A stretch of DNA of 64,000 nucleotides, taken from contig NZ_CP048021.1 of assembly GCF_010092505.1 (NCBI RefSeq), positions 2,356,001 through 2,420,000 on the forward strand, in the 5' to 3' direction. The stretch's first letter is position 1, and every line of letters starts with the position of its first letter. Made by a program: the position numbers and the translations under genes. Origin of the DNA: Virgibacillus sp. MSP4-1. Lineage in GTDB: Bacteria > Bacillota > Bacilli > Bacillales > Alkalibacillaceae. The notes under the pieces were generated by a model. It was not told the origin of the DNA. It saw nothing but the letters and a program-made list of their open reading frames with translations, and did no database searches. Below, piece after piece: positions 5,021 through 64,000 of the stretch.

Positions 5021-5890
5021 ATGCGGGGTGGCGGCTTAATTCCGGGGTGAGTGGATTGATTTTGGGTAGAATAGATGAATTTTATAAGAACCGGATCAAT
5101 TCTGGGGTGCGGGGATTGATTCCGGGAAAAACGGATCAATCCTGGGCTGTGCGGATGAATTCCCGTAAAATCGGATCAATCCCGGGATGAGCAGACGAAT
5201 TCCCGGAAAATCAGATCAATTCCGGGATGAGCAGACGAATTCCCGGAAAATCGGATCAATTCCTATAAAATTGGACGAATCTGTTTTAAAACTGGATTAA
5301 TTTTTTCCGAAATCGGATTAATTATTTCGAAAACAGGCGTAATCCCGGGGCTGTGCGGATTGATTCTGAATAAAATAGATGAATTTTATAAAAGCCGGAC
5401 CAATTCTGGGGTAGGCGGATTGATCCCAGGTTTTTCCGCTTAATTCTGGGGTGCGGGGATTGATTCCGGGAAAAACGGATCAATCCTGGGCTGTGCGGAT
5501 CAATTCCGGGAAAATCGGATCAAATCCTGGATGAGCAGACCAATTCCCGGAAAATCGGATCAATTCCTATAAAATTGGACGAATCTGTTTTAAAACTGGA
5601 TTAATTTTTTCCGAAACCGGATCAATTATTTCGAAAACAGGCTTAATCCCGGGACTGTGCGGATTGATTTTGAATAAAATAGATGAATTTTATAAAAACC
5701 GGATGAATTCCGGCCTTTTCTGCTCAATTCCCGGGACGGGCGGATCAATTCCAGTCTTTCCAGCTCAATTCCAGGGACGGGCGGATCAATTCCAGTCTTT
5801 CCCGCTCAATTCCCAGGACGTGTGGATCAATTCCGGTCTTTCCCGCTCAATTCCCGGAATTCGTCTGCTCATCCCGGGTTTTTCCGCTCG
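5021..5890. repeat. Array of degenerate 20-bp repeats (array 1)
   Basis: About 0.9 kb between ywlE and mntP contains no credible gene. From 5021 to 5280 the motif GGATCAAT or a variant (GGATTGAT, AGATGAAT, AGACGAAT) recurs exactly every 20 bp, followed by TCCGGG or TCCCGG; further on the step is 20-21 bp. A larger unit of about 300 bp is visible: the segment around 5051 recurs near 5353 and 5657. Towards 5720-5880 the units read CGCTCAATTCC. Arrays at 36.85-38.5 and 49.45-49.88 kb share the CGGMTCAATTCC core. Confidence 0.85.
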
Positions 5891-20948: not shown

Positions 20949-21204
20949 TGCTGATAGTTATGAAGGACACTTCTCCAGATGGTTTTATGGCTTTTGGCCT
21001 TCATTAACTTATGATCTTGGTTTATTGCACCATCAGGGCTGGTGCTGATGGCTATGAAGGACATTTCTCCTGGTGATTTTATGGCTTTTGGCCCTCATTC
21101 GGTGTATGAAGGCCAATTCCCCGGGTGATTTTATGACTTATGGCCTTCATTCGGCGTATGAGGGACATTGCGGTTATATGGTTACGCAGAAGTGTCCTTC
21201 ATCG
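20949..21204. repeat. 52-bp-phased inverted-motif array, left part
   Basis: ATGAAGGACA or a variant starts at 20960, 21054, 21106 and 21158; its complement (GGCCTTCAT, GGCCCTCAT or TGTCCTTCAT) lies between. From 21054 the same-strand spacing is exactly 52 bp. Neighbouring opposed motifs form hairpins with 6-8-nt loops. The insertion sequence begins at 21205; deleting it and one target copy puts the next motif at virtual position 21210, again 52 bp on. No gene is seen. Confidence 0.85.
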
Positions 21205-21235
21205 TGTTGTGACCCCCAAAAGTTAAAGTTTTTTG

Positions 21236-22006
21236 TTATGCAGTTAATTGGTTGGTGTGAAGTCGGTATTGAACCGGATTCATACCTCCCAGTTTTTGCT
21301 TTATACGCTTATTATTATAATAGTTGATGTACTCCTCAATCTTCTTTTTTAAATTTTCATAGGAGCACAGTTCATTGCCATGATACATCTCTTGCTTTAA
21401 TAAACCGAAAAAGTTTTCCATAGGTGAATTATCTATACAGTTCCCTTTTCGCGACATACTCTGGAACACCTTGTTTTTCTTGAGTGTTTTTACCCATTTT
21501 TTATGTTGGTAATGCCAGCCCTGATCAGAGTGAACAGTGGTTCTGTATTTTGAGTTTTTTACGATTTCCAGAGCTTCCTCAAGTGGTTCAAGGGCCAAGT
21601 TTAAAGTTGGACGCATACTTATTCCGTATGAAAGAATTTCACCATTAAACATATCCATGATAGGATTCAAATATAATTTCAAACCCTCTAAACACTTAAA
21701 TTCTGTAATATCTGTTGTGAGCTTTTGATAACATACAGATGTGTGAAAACGACGATTTATACGGTTTTTGGCAACAGTTCCGACAGTTCCTTTATAAGAG
21801 CTATACTTTCGTGACTTCCCAAAAAAGTTATCTGCTTTAAGCCCTAGTTTCTTCATAAGCCGTTGAACCTTCTTATGGTTCACTTTCCGTTTTTCATTCC
21901 TCAATTCTAATTGTATACGACGATAACCATAGTTACCGTTATGTTCATCAAAAATGGATTGAATCCGTTCCTCAAGTTCCTGATCTGGATTATCCCTTTT
22001 CATCAT
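21236..22006 (-). CDS. IS transposase catalytic subunit OrfB
   Basis: DDE integrase of 256 residues from its first ATG: HTH_21 region (FDEHNGNYGYRRIQLELRNE), then the triad TTDITEF, VHSDQGWHY and the glutamate in NSPMENFFGLLKQE. The natural product is probably the OrfAB fusion: minus-one slippage at 22075-22081 adds KKDFRLKDVLKIVGIPESS and following residues before the ATG. Frame intact, so this copy may be active. Confidence 0.93.
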   Translation of the reverse strand: MMKRDNPDQELEERIQSIFDEHNGNYGYRRIQLELRNEKRKVNHKKVQRLMKKLGLKADNFFGKSRKYSSYKGTVGTVAKNRINRRFHTSVCYQKLTTDITEFKCLEGLKLYLNPIMDMFNGEILSYGISMRPTLNLALEPLEEALEIVKNSKYRTTVHSDQGWHYQHKKWVKTLKKNKVFQSMSRKGNCIDNSPMENFFGLLKQEMYHGNELCSYENLKKKIEEYINYYNNKRIKQKLGGMNPVQYRLHTNQLTA

Positions 22007-22062
22007 CTTTATATGATAATGGTAAGACGATTCCGGAATACCGACTATCTTTAAAACATCTT

Positions 22063-22629
22063 TTAATCGGAAATCTTTTTTGAGTTCGAGTGATAACGCT
22101 GCTTGTGCTTTTCGAGATAGCCTTCCGGATCCATCTGAAAAGCCCGCAACTTTTTTAAGTATTCTACCTCCAAACGAAGGAGTTCGTTTTCTCTTTCTAA
22201 TTTTTGTTCGTGTGTTACGTCTTTTTCTTCTTTGGGTTGTTTTCTTCTGTTCTCAGCTTTATCTGACATCGACTGCCGCCGTCCTTTCGGCTTCTCCAGG
22301 GCTCCAGCCCCACCCTCAAGGAAAGCTTTTTTCCAAGAAGAAATAAGAGGAGGGCTTGTCAGTCCAAATTGAAGGGCTGTTTCCAACTCTGAAGAGCCTG
22401 TTCTCTCCATAAATCTTATTACATTCAGCTTAAATTGAACAGAGTAAGTTTCCTTATGCCTCTTACTCATTAATCCATTCGCTCCGAATTGTTCATATAC
22501 TTTTATCCATCTTCTCATTAATTTCGTATCATTCATACCATACTTCTTAGCTAAACGTCTATATCCTAGTTTCCCTTCCTGGTATTCTTTGACTATCATT
22601 AGCTTGAATTTTTCACTATATTTTGCCAT
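22063..22629 (-). CDS. IS transposase DNA-binding subunit OrfA
   Basis: 188 residues starting MAKYSEKFKLMIVKEYQEG, with two helix-turn-helix motifs (GYRRLAKKYGMNDTKLMRRW and a second near residues 75-95) and a C-terminal leucine-zipper-like helix (EQKLERENELLRLEVEYLKK). It recognises the terminal repeats. The stop lies just past the A-AAA-AAG heptamer (22075-22081), placed in frame for minus-one shifting into OrfB. The start is near the left terminal repeat. Confidence 0.92.
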   Translation of the reverse strand: MAKYSEKFKLMIVKEYQEGKLGYRRLAKKYGMNDTKLMRRWIKVYEQFGANGLMSKRHKETYSVQFKLNVIRFMERTGSSELETALQFGLTSPPLISSWKKAFLEGGAGALEKPKGRRQSMSDKAENRRKQPKEEKDVTHEQKLERENELLRLEVEYLKKLRAFQMDPEGYLEKHKQRYHSNSKKISD

Positions 22630-22682
22630 TTGTATACACCCCAAAAAGTAGATTTTGACTCCAACTTTTGGGGTGCAGGACA

Positions 22683-23380
22683 TCGGCTTGATGAAGGACA
22701 CTTCCGTATGTTTATCACTAAGCTTTGGCCGTCAGCGGCTTCCAGGAGCCTTTGATCAGGATTATTCCTCCATTTACGAGTCCCGGCTTAGCTTCTGAAG
22801 GACTATTTTATGAGGCCTGTTCTTTCTTTTGGCCTTCATTAACTTATGATCTTGGTTTATTGCACCATCAGAGCTGGTGCTGATAGTTATGAAGGACATT
22901 TCTCCTGGTGATTTTATGACTTATGGCCTTCATTCGGAGTATGAAGGCCATTGCGGTTATATGGATACGCAGAAGTGTCCTTCATCGGCTTGATGAAGGA
23001 CACTTCCGTATGTTTATCACTAAGTTTTGGCCGTCAGCGGCTTCCAGGAGCCTTTGATCAGGATTATTCCGCCATTTACGAGTCCCGGCTTAGCTTCTGA
23101 AGGACTATTTTATGAGGCCTGTTCTTTCTTTTGGCCTTCATTAACTTATGATCTTGGTTTATTGCACCATCAGGGCTGGTGCTGATGGCTATGAAGGACA
23201 CTTCTCCTGGTGATTTTATGGCTTTTGGCCCTCATTCGGTGTATGAAGGCCAATTCTCCGGGTGATTTTATGACTTATGGCCTTCATTCGGCGTATGAGG
23301 GACAATTCATCTATTTTCATGCGTGGAAGTGTCCTTCATCGGCTTGATGAAGGACACTTCCGTATGTTTATCACCTAGTT
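22683..23380. repeat. 52-bp-phased inverted-motif array, right part, with larger tandem copies
   Basis: Motif starts at 22889, 22941, 22993 and again at 23191, 23243, 23295, 23347, each series stepping exactly 52 bp. A larger unit beginning TCGGCTTGATGAAGG recurs at 22683, 22985 and 23339 (steps 302 and 354 bp). The junction GAAGTGTCCTTCAT-CGGCTTG-ATGAAGGACACTTC is a 14-bp perfect stem with a 7-nt loop; it is intact twice here and broken once by the IS. No gene is seen. Confidence 0.85.
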
Positions 23381-36852: not shown

Positions 36853-38530
36853 CTGTGGTGCTGGCATGGGATTGAGCGGGTTTTGACGGAATTAAGCCTG
36901 AATGGCGGGGATTAAGCTGGGTTGGCCGGGATTGTGCCGGGTTGACCGGGATTATGCTGATTTGTCGGGAATTGAGCCGGTTTGACCGGGATTGAGCGGG
37001 TCCGGCCGGAATTGAGCCGATCCACCCGGGATTGAGCCGGTTTGACCGGGATTGAGCGGGTCCGGCCGGAATTGAGCTGATCCACCCGGGATTGAGCCGG
37101 TTTGACCGGGATTGAGCGGGTCCGGCCGGAATTGAGCTGATCCACCCGGGATTGAGCCGGGTTGGCGGGGATTGAGCCGGTCCGGCCGCGATTGTGCTGA
37201 TTTGTCGGGAATTGAGCCGGTTTACCGGCAATTAAACCTTTTTACCCAGATTTCAACCTTCAAGATGCTGAATTCGTCCTGTTTTAAAATTTTTTCATCC
37301 AGTTTTGAAATGAATTCATCCTGTTTTCTCAATCATTAAGCCAGCATGCGGCGAATCTGGCTAAAAATTCATTAATTAAGCCCGTTTCCTCTGATTCAAG
37401 CCTGAATCCGAGGAATCAATCCTAAACGCCTGGAATTGAGCCGGTTTGACCCGATTTGAGCCGACCAAGCCAAAATTTAGCCGAGCCACCCGGAATTGAG
37501 CCGAGCCATCCGGAATTGAGCCGTTCACACAGGAATTGAGCCGAACCACCCGGAATTCAGCCGATTCACCCCGGATTCAGCCGATCCAACCGGGATTGAG
37601 CCGATCCACCCGGGATTGAGCCGGTTTACCGGCAATTAAACCTTTTTACCCAGATTTCAACCTTCAAGATGCTGAATTCGTCCTGTTTTAAAATTTTTTC
37701 ATCCAGTTTTGAAATGAATTCATCCTGTTTTCTCAATCATTAAGCCAGCATGCGGCGAATCTGGCTAAAAATTCATTAATTAAGCCCGTTTCCTCTGATT
37801 CAAGCCTGAATCCGAGGAATCAATCCTAAACGCCGGGAATTGAGCCGGTTTGACCCGATTTGAGCCGACCAAGCCAAAATTTAGCCGAGCCACCCGGAAT
37901 TGAGCCGATCACACAGGAATTGAGCCGAACCACCCGGAATTCAGCCGATTCACCCCGGATTCAGCCGATCCACCCGGGATTGAGCCGGTTTACCGGCAAT
38001 TAAACCTTTTTACCCAGATTTCAACCTTCAAGATGCTGAATTCGTCCTGTTTTAAAATTTTTTCATCCAGTTTTGAAATGAATTCATCCTGTTTTCTCAA
38101 TCATTAAGCCAGCATGCGGCGAATCTGGCTAAAAATTCATTAATTAAGCCCGTTTCCTCTGATTCAAGCCTGAATCCGAGGAATCAATCCTAAACGCCGG
38201 GAATTGAGCCGGTTTGACCCGATTTGAGCCGACCAAGCCAAAATTTAGCCGAGCCACCCGGAATTGAGCCGATCACACAGGAATTGAGCCGAACCACCCG
38301 GAATTCAGCCGATTCACCCCGGATTCAGCCGATCCAACCGGGATTGAGCCGAGCCAGCCGGGATTGAGCCGAGCCAGCCGGAATTGAGCCGATCACAAAG
38401 GAATTGAGCCGAACCACCCGGAATTCAGCCGATTCACCCCGAATTCAGCCGTTCCACCGGGAATTGAACCGTTCACACAAGAATTCAGCCAATCTCACAG
38501 CAATTAAGCCCAAATCAGACCAATCAATCC
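36853..38530. repeat. Array of degenerate 20-bp repeats (array 2)
   Basis: 1.7 kb between the convergent clsB and argS. Units such as GGGATTGAGCCGGTTTGACC follow one another at 20 bp, with 21-bp steps in AT-rich stretches. Read on the other strand the core is CGGCTCAATTCC, the same family as array 1 in opposite orientation. A long block beginning ATTGAGCCGGTTTACC occurs at 37211, 37615 and 37979. Long open frames here are by-products of the period (three units equal 20 codons) and have no ribosome-binding site. Confidence 0.88.
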
Positions 38531-54677: not shown

Positions 54678-54830
54678 ATGAGGAACAGAAAACTGCAGAA
54701 ACATCGTGGAAGTGTCCTTCATCGCGGTTATGAAGGACTGATGAGCCGAAAAATGCAGCGAGACTGTCCTTCATTAGGTGCATGAAGGACATTATAAACC
54801 AAATTTGCCATGGGTATGTCCTTCATTCGT
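54678..54830. repeat. 52-bp-phased inverted-motif array (small)
   Basis: Direct motifs start at 54678 (ATGAGGAAC), 54730 and 54782 (ATGAAGGAC), steps of 52 bp. Complement GTCCTTCAT starts at 54714, 54766 and 54818, again 52 bp apart. TGTCCTTCAT-CGCGGTT-ATGAAGGAC and TGTCCTTCAT-TAGGTGC-ATGAAGGACA form hairpins with 7-nt loops. No IS here. Confidence 0.8.
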
Positions 54831-62133: not shown

Positions 62134-62225
62134 GTGCCTTCACCTCAATTTACTGTTTGATGTCATGTTTCCATCTGTATCTATGTAAAGTTTCGTCAAT
62201 AGACGGAGAAGTCCTGCTTTTATTT

Positions 62226-62382
62226 ATGAAGGACGTATCTGTATTATTTGAGTGTTATTTTGGTCATCATTTGGTTGATGAAGGACATTTATGATTTGGT
62301 TCGATCTTCTTTTGGCCTTCATTCCCTCGATGAAGGACATTCACCATATGATTTGATGTTCAAATGGCCCTCATCCCCTGAG
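62226..62382. repeat. 52-bp-phased inverted-motif array, part before IS copy 2
   Basis: ATGAAGGAC starts at 62226, 62278 and 62330 (52-bp steps) with GGCCTTCAT and GGCCCTCAT between. With the IS and one GAG copy removed, the next TGAAGGAC falls in phase at virtual 62382. Confidence 0.85.
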
Positions 62383-62435
62383 TGTCCTGCACCCCAAAAG
62401 TTGGAGTCAAAATCTACTTTTTGGGGTGTATACAA

Positions 62436-63002
62436 ATGGCAAAATATAGTGAAAAATTCAAGCTAATGATAGTCAAAGAATACCAGGAAGGGAAACTAGG
62501 ATATAGACGTTTAGCTAAGAAGTATGGTATGAATGATACGAAATTAATGAGAAGATGGATAAAAGTATATGAACAATTCGGAGCGAATGGATTAATGAGT
62601 AAGAGGCATAAGGAAACTTACTCTGTTCAATTTAAGCTGAATGTAATAAGATTTATGGAGAGAACAGGCTCTTCAGAGTTGGAAACAGCCCTTCAATTTG
62701 GACTGACAAGCCCTCCTCTTATTTCTTCTTGGAAAAAAGCTTTCCTTGAGGGTGGGGCTGGAGCCCTGGAGAAGCCGAAAGGACGGCGGCAGTCGATGTC
62801 AGATAAAGCTGAGAACAGAAGAAAACAACCCAAAGAAGAAAAAGACGTAACACACGAACAAAAATTAGAAAGAGAAAACGAACTCCTTCGTTTGGAGGTA
62901 GAATACTTAAAAAAGTTGCGGGCTTTTCAGATGGATCCGGAAGGCTATCTCGAAAAGCACAAGCAGCGTTATCACTCGAACTCAAAAAAGATTTCCGATT
63001 AA
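62436..63002 (+). CDS. IS transposase DNA-binding subunit OrfA (copy 2)
   Basis: Same 188-residue protein as in copy 1. The slippery heptamer A-AAA-AAG is at 62984-62990, with the AAA and AAG codons in the OrfA frame, four codons before the stop TAA. Slippage by minus one would give the OrfAB transposase ending at 63829. Intact. Confidence 0.92.
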   Translation: MAKYSEKFKLMIVKEYQEGKLGYRRLAKKYGMNDTKLMRRWIKVYEQFGANGLMSKRHKETYSVQFKLNVIRFMERTGSSELETALQFGLTSPPLISSWKKAFLEGGAGALEKPKGRRQSMSDKAENRRKQPKEEKDVTHEQKLERENELLRLEVEYLKKLRAFQMDPEGYLEKHKQRYHSNSKKISD

Positions 63003-63058
63003 AAGATGTTTTAAAGATAGTCGGTATTCCGGAATCGTCTTACCATTATCATATAAAG

Positions 63059-63829
63059 ATGATGAAAAGGGATAATCCAGATCAGGAACTTGAGGAACGG
63101 ATTCAATCCATTTTTGATGAACATAACGGTAACTATGGTTATCGTCGTATACAATTAGAATTGAGGAATGAAAAACGGAAAGTGAACCATAAGAAGGTTC
63201 AACGGCTTATGAAGAAACTAGGGCTTAAAGCAGATAACTTTTTTGGGAAGTCACGAAAGTATAGCTCTTATAAAGGAACTGTCGGAACTGTTGCCAAAAA
63301 CCGTATAAATCGTCGTTTTCACACATCTGTATGTTATCAAAAGCTCACAACAGATATTACAGAATTTAAGTGTTTAGAGGGTTTGAAATTATATTTGAAT
63401 CCTATCATGGATATGTTTAATGGTGAAATTCTTTCATACGGAATAAGTATGCGTCCAACTTTAAACTTGGCCCTTGAACCACTTGAGGAAGCTCTGGAAA
63501 TCGTAAAAAACTCAAAATACAGAACCACTGTTCACTCTGATCAGGGCTGGCATTACCAACATAAAAAATGGGTAAAAACACTCAAGAAAAACAAGGTGTT
63601 CCAGAGTATGTCGCGAAAAGGGAACTGTATAGATAATTCACCTATGGAAAACTTTTTCGGTTTATTAAAGCAAGAGATGTATCATGGCAATGAACTGTGC
63701 TCCTATGAAAATTTAAAAAAGAAGATTGAGGAGTACATCAACTATTATAATAATAAGCGTATAAAGCAAAAACTGGGAGGTATGAATCCGGTTCAATACC
63801 GACTTCACACCAACCAATTAACTGCATAA
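63059..63829 (+). CDS. IS transposase catalytic subunit OrfB (copy 2)
   Basis: Same 256-residue DDE integrase as in copy 1 (TTDITEF, VHSDQGWHY, NSPMENFFG). The frame is open upstream to the slippery site, so the functional product is the fusion OrfAB (62436-63829). Intact. Confidence 0.93.
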   Translation: MMKRDNPDQELEERIQSIFDEHNGNYGYRRIQLELRNEKRKVNHKKVQRLMKKLGLKADNFFGKSRKYSSYKGTVGTVAKNRINRRFHTSVCYQKLTTDITEFKCLEGLKLYLNPIMDMFNGEILSYGISMRPTLNLALEPLEEALEIVKNSKYRTTVHSDQGWHYQHKKWVKTLKKNKVFQSMSRKGNCIDNSPMENFFGLLKQEMYHGNELCSYENLKKKIEEYINYYNNKRIKQKLGGMNPVQYRLHTNQLTA

Positions 63830-63860
63830 CAAAAAACTTTAACTTTTGGGGGTCACAACA

Positions 63861-64000
63861 GAGTGAAGGACATTCACAAGGTACAGCTCTCACGATTTGT
63901 CCTTCACCCCCTCAATGAAGGCCACTTCCGCACCATTCATGCATGATTGTGTCCTTCACATACCTTCACAAGCCTTCACAAACCTTCACAGAAATCAACC
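63861..64000. repeat. 52-bp-phased array after IS copy 2, and CCTTCACA tract
   Basis: TGAAGGACA at 63864 and ATGAAGGCC at 63915 keep the 52-bp step. TGTCCTTCAC-type complements lie between. The last 40 bases change to CCTTCACA repeated about every 10 bp up to the window end. Confidence 0.75.

Follow-up and report, generated by a model that had tools for sequence, protein, structure and literature searches.

An IS150-type insertion sequence in hairpin repeats of Virgibacillus sp. MSP4-1 and the probable use of extragenic stem-loops as landing sites by its Bacillota lineage

RESULTS

Two identical IS copies lie in hairpin repeat arrays

The window analyzed here is a 64,000-nucleotide stretch of the Virgibacillus sp. 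MSP4-1 genome (3,332,438 bp, one contig). It contains two copies of an insertion sequence (IS), each within an array of short hairpins carrying the motif TGAAGG, and its relevant features, in window coordinates, are the following.

20960..23356, 52-bp-phased hairpin array hosting copy 1
21193..21202, minus strand, hairpin arm TGTCCTTCAT, split by copy 1
21202..21204, target duplication TCG, left of copy 1
21205..22682, minus strand, IS copy 1, 1,478 bp, ends TGTTGTGACCCCC / TGTCCTGCACCCC
21236..22006, minus strand, orfB of copy 1, DDE integrase core, D-D-35-E, IS3 family
22063..22629, minus strand, orfA of copy 1, 188 aa, helix-turn-helix
22075..22081, minus strand, A AAA AAG heptamer of copy 1, in the orfA frame
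22683..22685, target duplication TCG, right of copy 1
22691..22700, plus strand, partner arm ATGAAGGACA at the copy 1 site, preceded by loop CGGCTTG
22976..23002, intact 27-bp palindrome, same sequence as the copy 1 empty site
23330..23356, second intact 27-bp palindrome
54713..54826, IS-free hairpin array of the same family
62217..63959, 52-bp-phased hairpin array hosting copy 2
62365..62374, minus strand, arm TGGCCCTCAT, split by copy 2
62380..62382, target duplication GAG, left of copy 2
62383..63860, plus strand, IS copy 2, identical in sequence to copy 1
63861..63863, target duplication GAG, right of copy 2
63864..63872, plus strand, partner arm TGAAGGACA at the copy 2 site

Both orfA and orfB are intact and lie in a −1 register, with the A AAA AAG heptamer in their overlap (in copy 2 at 62984-62990 in the orfA frame, orfB being the −1 frame). 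This is the usual IS3 arrangement, and the heptamer is a probable programmed frameshift site. OrfB (256 aa) contains HTH_21 and integrase core domains, scores 275.8 bits against the NCBI IS3 model NF033516 (cut-off 160) and has the catalytic triad D99-D161-E197, with 35 residues as the D-E spacing. The terminal inverted repeats are imperfect (TGTCCTGCACCCCAAAAGTT / TGTTGTGACCCCCAAAAGTT), and the target duplications are 3 bp long. With its frameshifted orfA/orfB, DDE core, 3-bp duplications and imperfect inverted repeats, the element belongs to the IS3 family. The genome holds four copies that are 100% identical across all 1,478 bp, which suggests that the element has been active recently.

The three arrays are BIME-like: inverted TGAAGGACA motifs alternate in them and recur strictly every 52 bp (17 + 35). 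The hairpin motif was matched 40 times in the window versus 5.5 times in shuffled sequence, and degenerate TGTCCTTCA/TGAAGGACA hairpins numbered 200 genome-wide versus 8 for a reversed-pattern control. Perfect TGAAGG hairpins occurred 39, 19 and 8 times in genomes of the genus but 0-2 times in other genomes, and the idea of a repeat common to the whole family was therefore rejected in favor of one concentrated in the genus. These hairpins are without the A/T tracts typical of terminators. The window also contains 20-bp-phased repeat arrays of the CGGATCAATTCCCGGGAAAAT and GGAATTGAGCCGATCCACCC types at 5033-5889 and 36868-38471. Elsewhere in the genome, two Y1 transposases resembling REP-associated tyrosine transposases are encoded at 2022718 (L232) and 2111404 (L233), flanked by the repeats TTTAAAGCATGTGGGGACAGTCCC and GGTGGTGCCTGTCACGCCCC, respectively. 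The palindromes beside the two genes are GGGGACAGTCCC and GGTGCCTGTCAC, not TGAAGG, and a tie between such a transposase and the TGAAGG hairpins was rejected, the motif being absent within 1.5 kb of both genes. In other Bacillaceae, the IS lineage has palindromes of the L232/L233 type among its targets.

All four host copies interrupt TGAAGG hairpins at the same offset

The original prediction placed both copies exactly, with TCG and GAG duplications, and this was reproduced on the sequence. It also held that excision of the IS restores the repeat phase and that the uninterrupted palindrome stands twice beside copy 1: subtraction of 1,481 bp indeed left the split hairpins 52 bp from the adjacent ones (centers 21154 and 21206 for copy 1), and the palindrome was found downstream of copy 1 at both intact positions listed above. 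The empty site of copy 1 was rebuilt as TGTCCTTCA-TCG-GCTTGATGAAGGACA. That of copy 2 reads TGGCCCTCATCCCCT-GAG-TGAAGGACA on the plus strand and TGTCCTTCA-CTC-AGGGGATGAGGGCCA from the duplication-bearing arm. A search of the remaining genome for further copies returned two, both identical to the first and both in TGAAGG hairpins, one with the empty site TGTCCTTCA-TTC-AGCGAATGAAGGACA when read from the duplication-bearing arm and the other, mirrored, with TGTCCTTTA-TTG-GGTTAAATGAAGGACA. Thus, all four copies reside in TGTCCTTCA/TGAAGGACA hairpins, and in each case the 3-bp duplication abuts one 9-bp arm. Since these hairpins, each about 15 bp long, make up about 0.09% of the genome, simple arithmetic puts the chance of four out of four at about 7 × 10−13.

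The arrays are recombinogenic tandem repeats, through which IS copies might have spread along with the repeats rather than by transposing into them. However, the four loci show four different duplications (CGA, GAG, GAA and TTG in gene orientation) and different flanks, and this origin, already disfavored, is scarcely credible.

Folding of two of the four host sites as DNA was weak (−2.4 and −4.0 kcal/mol), yet the insertion offset was unchanged, so the arm sequence matters in this host.

Relatives of the element land in unrelated stem-loops

We collected 148 insertions of the lineage for which both ends were found, the four host copies included; once redundant or unusable sites were dropped, 124 distinct sites flanked by 3-bp duplications remained, nearly all of them from relatives. 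Their sources were Niallia, Neobacillus, Halalkalibacter, Heyndrickxia, Oceanobacillus, Lysinibacillus, Sporosarcina and other Bacillaceae and Caryophanaceae, together with further genomes from this order, and their transposases were 53-82% identical to that of the host element. Very few of these sites are TGAAGG-like. The commonest layout was A-tract, GC-rich arm, loop, arm and T-tract, as in L153 (AAAAGGGCCATTTCC GAT TGGAAATGGCCTTT), and judged by sequence most of the target sites in relatives look like intrinsic terminators. The remaining sites are other palindromic repeats, such as GGGGACGGTTC in genome G402, GGGGACAGG..CCTGTCCC in Oceanobacillus and GGTGTCAGGCACC in Neobacillus. Most copies in relatives thus occupy hairpins other than TGAAGG, so that a restriction to this one palindrome, as first proposed, holds for the host copies and not for the lineage.

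For 52 sites with long flanks, the neighboring genes were convergent in 23 cases, co-directional in 20 and divergent in none; two sites lay inside ORFs and 50 were intergenic, with a median distance of 38 bp from insertion to stop codon. This context, convergent or co-directional and just past stop codons, is a property of terminators.

Pairing of the arms is kept whereas their sequence is not

Hairpins were scored as ungapped inverted repeats enclosing the insertion point, with a threshold of at least 20. This score was reached by 75.8% of the 124 sites; the corresponding figures were 4.9% for 2,728 points at a distance of 41-95 bp and 5.05% for random window positions. Swapped pairs, in which a left flank was joined to the right flank of a different site, reached the threshold in only 12.2% of cases, and at a score of at least 25 the values were 61% for matched and 3.1% for swapped flanks. 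Since matched flanks pair far more often than swapped ones, the property that is kept is arm pairing and not a motif. Mean folding energy in 51-nt windows reached −16.5 kcal/mol at the insertion but stayed near −6 kcal/mol from 24 nt outwards, the dip being confined to about ±16 nt of the insertion. At the duplication and neighboring positions of the lineage sites, no sequence consensus was detected (maximum 0.17 bits); only A-rich and T-rich blocks stand out in the flanks, 8-20 bp from the insertion.

About one-quarter of the 124 sites fall short of a score of 20; on visual inspection, several of them contain long-loop repeats or bulged stems, but a few (L046, L057) show no hairpin. In a strict minimum-energy test that asked for the insertion center in a hairpin loop, 46% of sites passed versus about 22%; frequent overlap of the duplication with the edge of the loop makes this test less sensitive than the inverted-repeat score. 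An orientation bias of the IS relative to the terminator was suspected by eye and rejected on count (A-left 34, T-right 19, both 8, none 33), A and T content being equal on both sides of the insertions.

As controls, other elements were examined. An IS4-like element with 9-bp duplications in G187, a genome where the lineage is also present, showed no hairpins at six sites (scores 12-18.5), and in G274, 12 copies of a different element have left flanks that look AT-rich and unstructured. Some of the PF01609 elements chosen as controls turned out to be IS1182-type hairpin inserters themselves.

That 50 of the 52 sites are intergenic would also be expected if insertion were close to random and copies survived only where they do no harm, in intergenic terminators or repeats. 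Such survivorship, already disfavored, is very improbable: hairpins occur at only 5% of points 41-95 bp away, the energy dip is narrow, and an unrelated IS with 9-bp duplications, in a genome shared with the lineage, lies outside hairpins.

A transposase reading the TGTCCTTCA arm as its site, as proposed for palindromic units, with the hairpin incidental, would account for the equal offset of all four host insertions from the TGTCCTTCA/TGAAGGACA arm, weak hairpins included. It would also fit the insertions in G402 and G331, which are tied to, and lie next to, a conserved GGGGACGG, and whose flanks pair about equally well whether matched or swapped. However, relatives with 73-82% transposase identity use many unrelated arms, and the missing consensus together with the matched-versus-swapped difference speaks against it. 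We consider recognition of this kind improbable as a general explanation. Rather, across the lineage the position and the duplication recur and the arms pair despite differing in sequence, without a lineage-wide consensus, which suggests that the transposase recognizes DNA shape more than a fixed sequence. Nevertheless, the weakly folding host sites and the GGGGACGG-tied copies indicate that structure alone is not the full explanation, so sequence or a host protein contributes.

Guidance could alternatively come from a host factor or the transcription machinery (paused RNA polymerase, an R-loop, or a gyrase- or IHF-like protein on repeats) that leads the element to terminators, with the transposase not reading structure at all. 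The terminator context and the position just past stop codons agree with this, and the repeats may bind host proteins; on the other hand, the IS shows no orientation bias relative to the T-tract, the host hairpins are without terminator A/T tracts, and other palindromic repeats are used as well. We regard such guidance as unlikely, though less so than recognition of a fixed arm sequence.

The host element belongs to a Bacillota clade

A tree was built from 75 OrfB proteins. The host element and 68 others (69/75) formed one Bacillota clade with support of 100/100, which takes in a Staphylococcus aureus plasmid element, a Listeria element and ISEfa10. IS150, ISKpn8, ISKpn1, ISEnfa3, L242 and L231 fell on the other side of the split. 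OrfB identity to the host element was 43.7% for IS150/ISKpn8, 44.5% for ISKpn1 and about 34-37% for more distant IS3 types, groups that the tree does not cover. L242, on an Enterobacter cloacae plasmid and outside the Bacillota clade, is an IS3-type element with a 4-bp duplication (AGAC) in the terminator loop AAAAACCGCC..GGCGGCTTTT, and ISEnfa3 (L239), also outside the clade, likewise sits in a terminator-like palindrome.

The closest relatives of the host element (G257: L152 and L153) are inserted in terminators. Either the host element has therefore switched its preference, or it just takes the most abundant extragenic hairpins that its host offers, a type largely restricted to the genus.

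DISCUSSION

We conclude that the element is probably an IS3-family, IS150-type copy-out/paste-in element of a Bacillota lineage whose landing sites are extragenic stem-loops. The target should be restated as stem-loops in general, terminators being the commonest, with the TGTCCTTCA repeat as this host's own version. Whether the whole lineage picks its targets by secondary structure, with a transposase that recognizes an extruded or single-stranded hairpin and makes a 3-bp staggered integration at the loop, we rate as evenly balanced; on this view terminators would be the default target, and repeat hairpins an alternative specific to certain hosts.

By analogy with other IS3 elements, the OrfAB transposase would generate a circular intermediate, and the circle would be pasted into the target with a 3-bp stagger. 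Target binding may be favored where DNA can form a hairpin, as a cruciform or in single-stranded form, mostly at intrinsic terminators; there the transposase, perhaps as OrfAB with OrfA, would carry out strand transfer across 3 bp at the loop. Where a host offers an abundant palindromic repeat, the element would settle there, and the fixed position that it takes up points to some sequence preference superimposed on the hairpin preference. Landing in terminators or repeat arrays would spare genes. Terminators and BIME-like repeats may be safe harbors for DDE elements, and insertions there could affect read-through between adjacent genes.

Comparison with known systems

Targeting of REP or palindromic units is established for the IS3 elements IS1397, ISKpn1 and ISPsy8, and for IS1397 and ISKpn1 the transposase has been held responsible for target specificity (summarized in PMC1525189). 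The analogy with IS1397 and ISKpn1, made in the original prediction, applies to the way of working, as these too are IS3-family elements whose copies insert in an extragenic palindrome. It does not extend to descent: the host element lies outside the clade of ISKpn1 and IS150 (the 100/100 split above; IS1397 not in the tree), so the resemblance to ISKpn1 would be functional. The lineage further differs in its 3-bp duplication and its use of unrelated hairpins, mostly terminators, and targeting of one repeat family is seen only in the four host copies. Loop targeting by an IS150-type element was borne out by all four host copies and a large excess in relatives, while a Bacillaceae counterpart with its own palindrome describes the host copies but not a lineage with diverse targets. 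One plasmid copy of the ISKpn1 family showed no hairpin. PMC2817692 cites a paper titled 'Palindromic unit-independent transposition of IS1397 in Yersinia pestis'. Whether palindromic units are recognized by sequence, by structure or through a host protein has been an open question for IS1397 and ISKpn1, and a lineage that uses many unrelated hairpins while keeping their pairing is a natural system in which to decide it.

IS150 of E. coli is, judging by similarity, probably of the same IS3 group as the host element, and resembles it in its ends and in its 3-bp duplications. However, only one of eight duplication-flanked IS150 sites exceeded the hairpin threshold, and insertions inside genes were seen. 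IS150 recurs beside hokA, hokB and hokE (L314, L315, L317, L320, L321, L322 and L234), where its flanks are imperfect, partly palindromic GCCCC..GAGGC sequences; this recurrence raises the possibility that a weaker preference for palindromes is older than the Bacillota lineage.

Group IIC introns also insert at intrinsic terminators, but they are RNA-based retroelements with a mechanism unrelated to that of this IS. In the literature searched, which excluded most subscription papers and ISfinder, we saw no IS150-type element of Bacillota described as systematically targeting terminators or stem-loops and leaving a clean 3-bp duplication.

The IS1182 family (IS1272/TnSha1 of staphylococci) likewise targets hairpins, often terminators, with little sequence specificity, and IS1272/TnSha1 inserts in terminator stems with a blunt partial deletion and no duplication (PMC4923244, PMC5678879). 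Its transposase belongs to a different family from the IS3-type OrfB, and whereas IS1272 removes or replaces part of the stem, the present lineage inserts at the loop or next to it and leaves a clean 3-bp duplication. Two further IS1182-family elements came to light among the genomes examined. One, in G268 (L273-L282; 456-aa transposase; ends TCAGCTTGTAGACA..TGTCTACAGTCTGA), has ten copies, each flanked by direct repeats that constitute an entire terminator hairpin (17-30 bp), a different one every time; its target duplication appears to be the whole stem-loop, unlike the stem deletion described for IS1272. The other, in G187 (L289-L292 and L312; 485 aa; ends GAGGCCACT..AGTGGCCTC), lies in terminator loops with about 7-bp duplications in four of five copies by eye. 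Together with the IS3 lineage described here, IS1182 elements in the same order suggest that unrelated IS families have converged on the hairpin niche.
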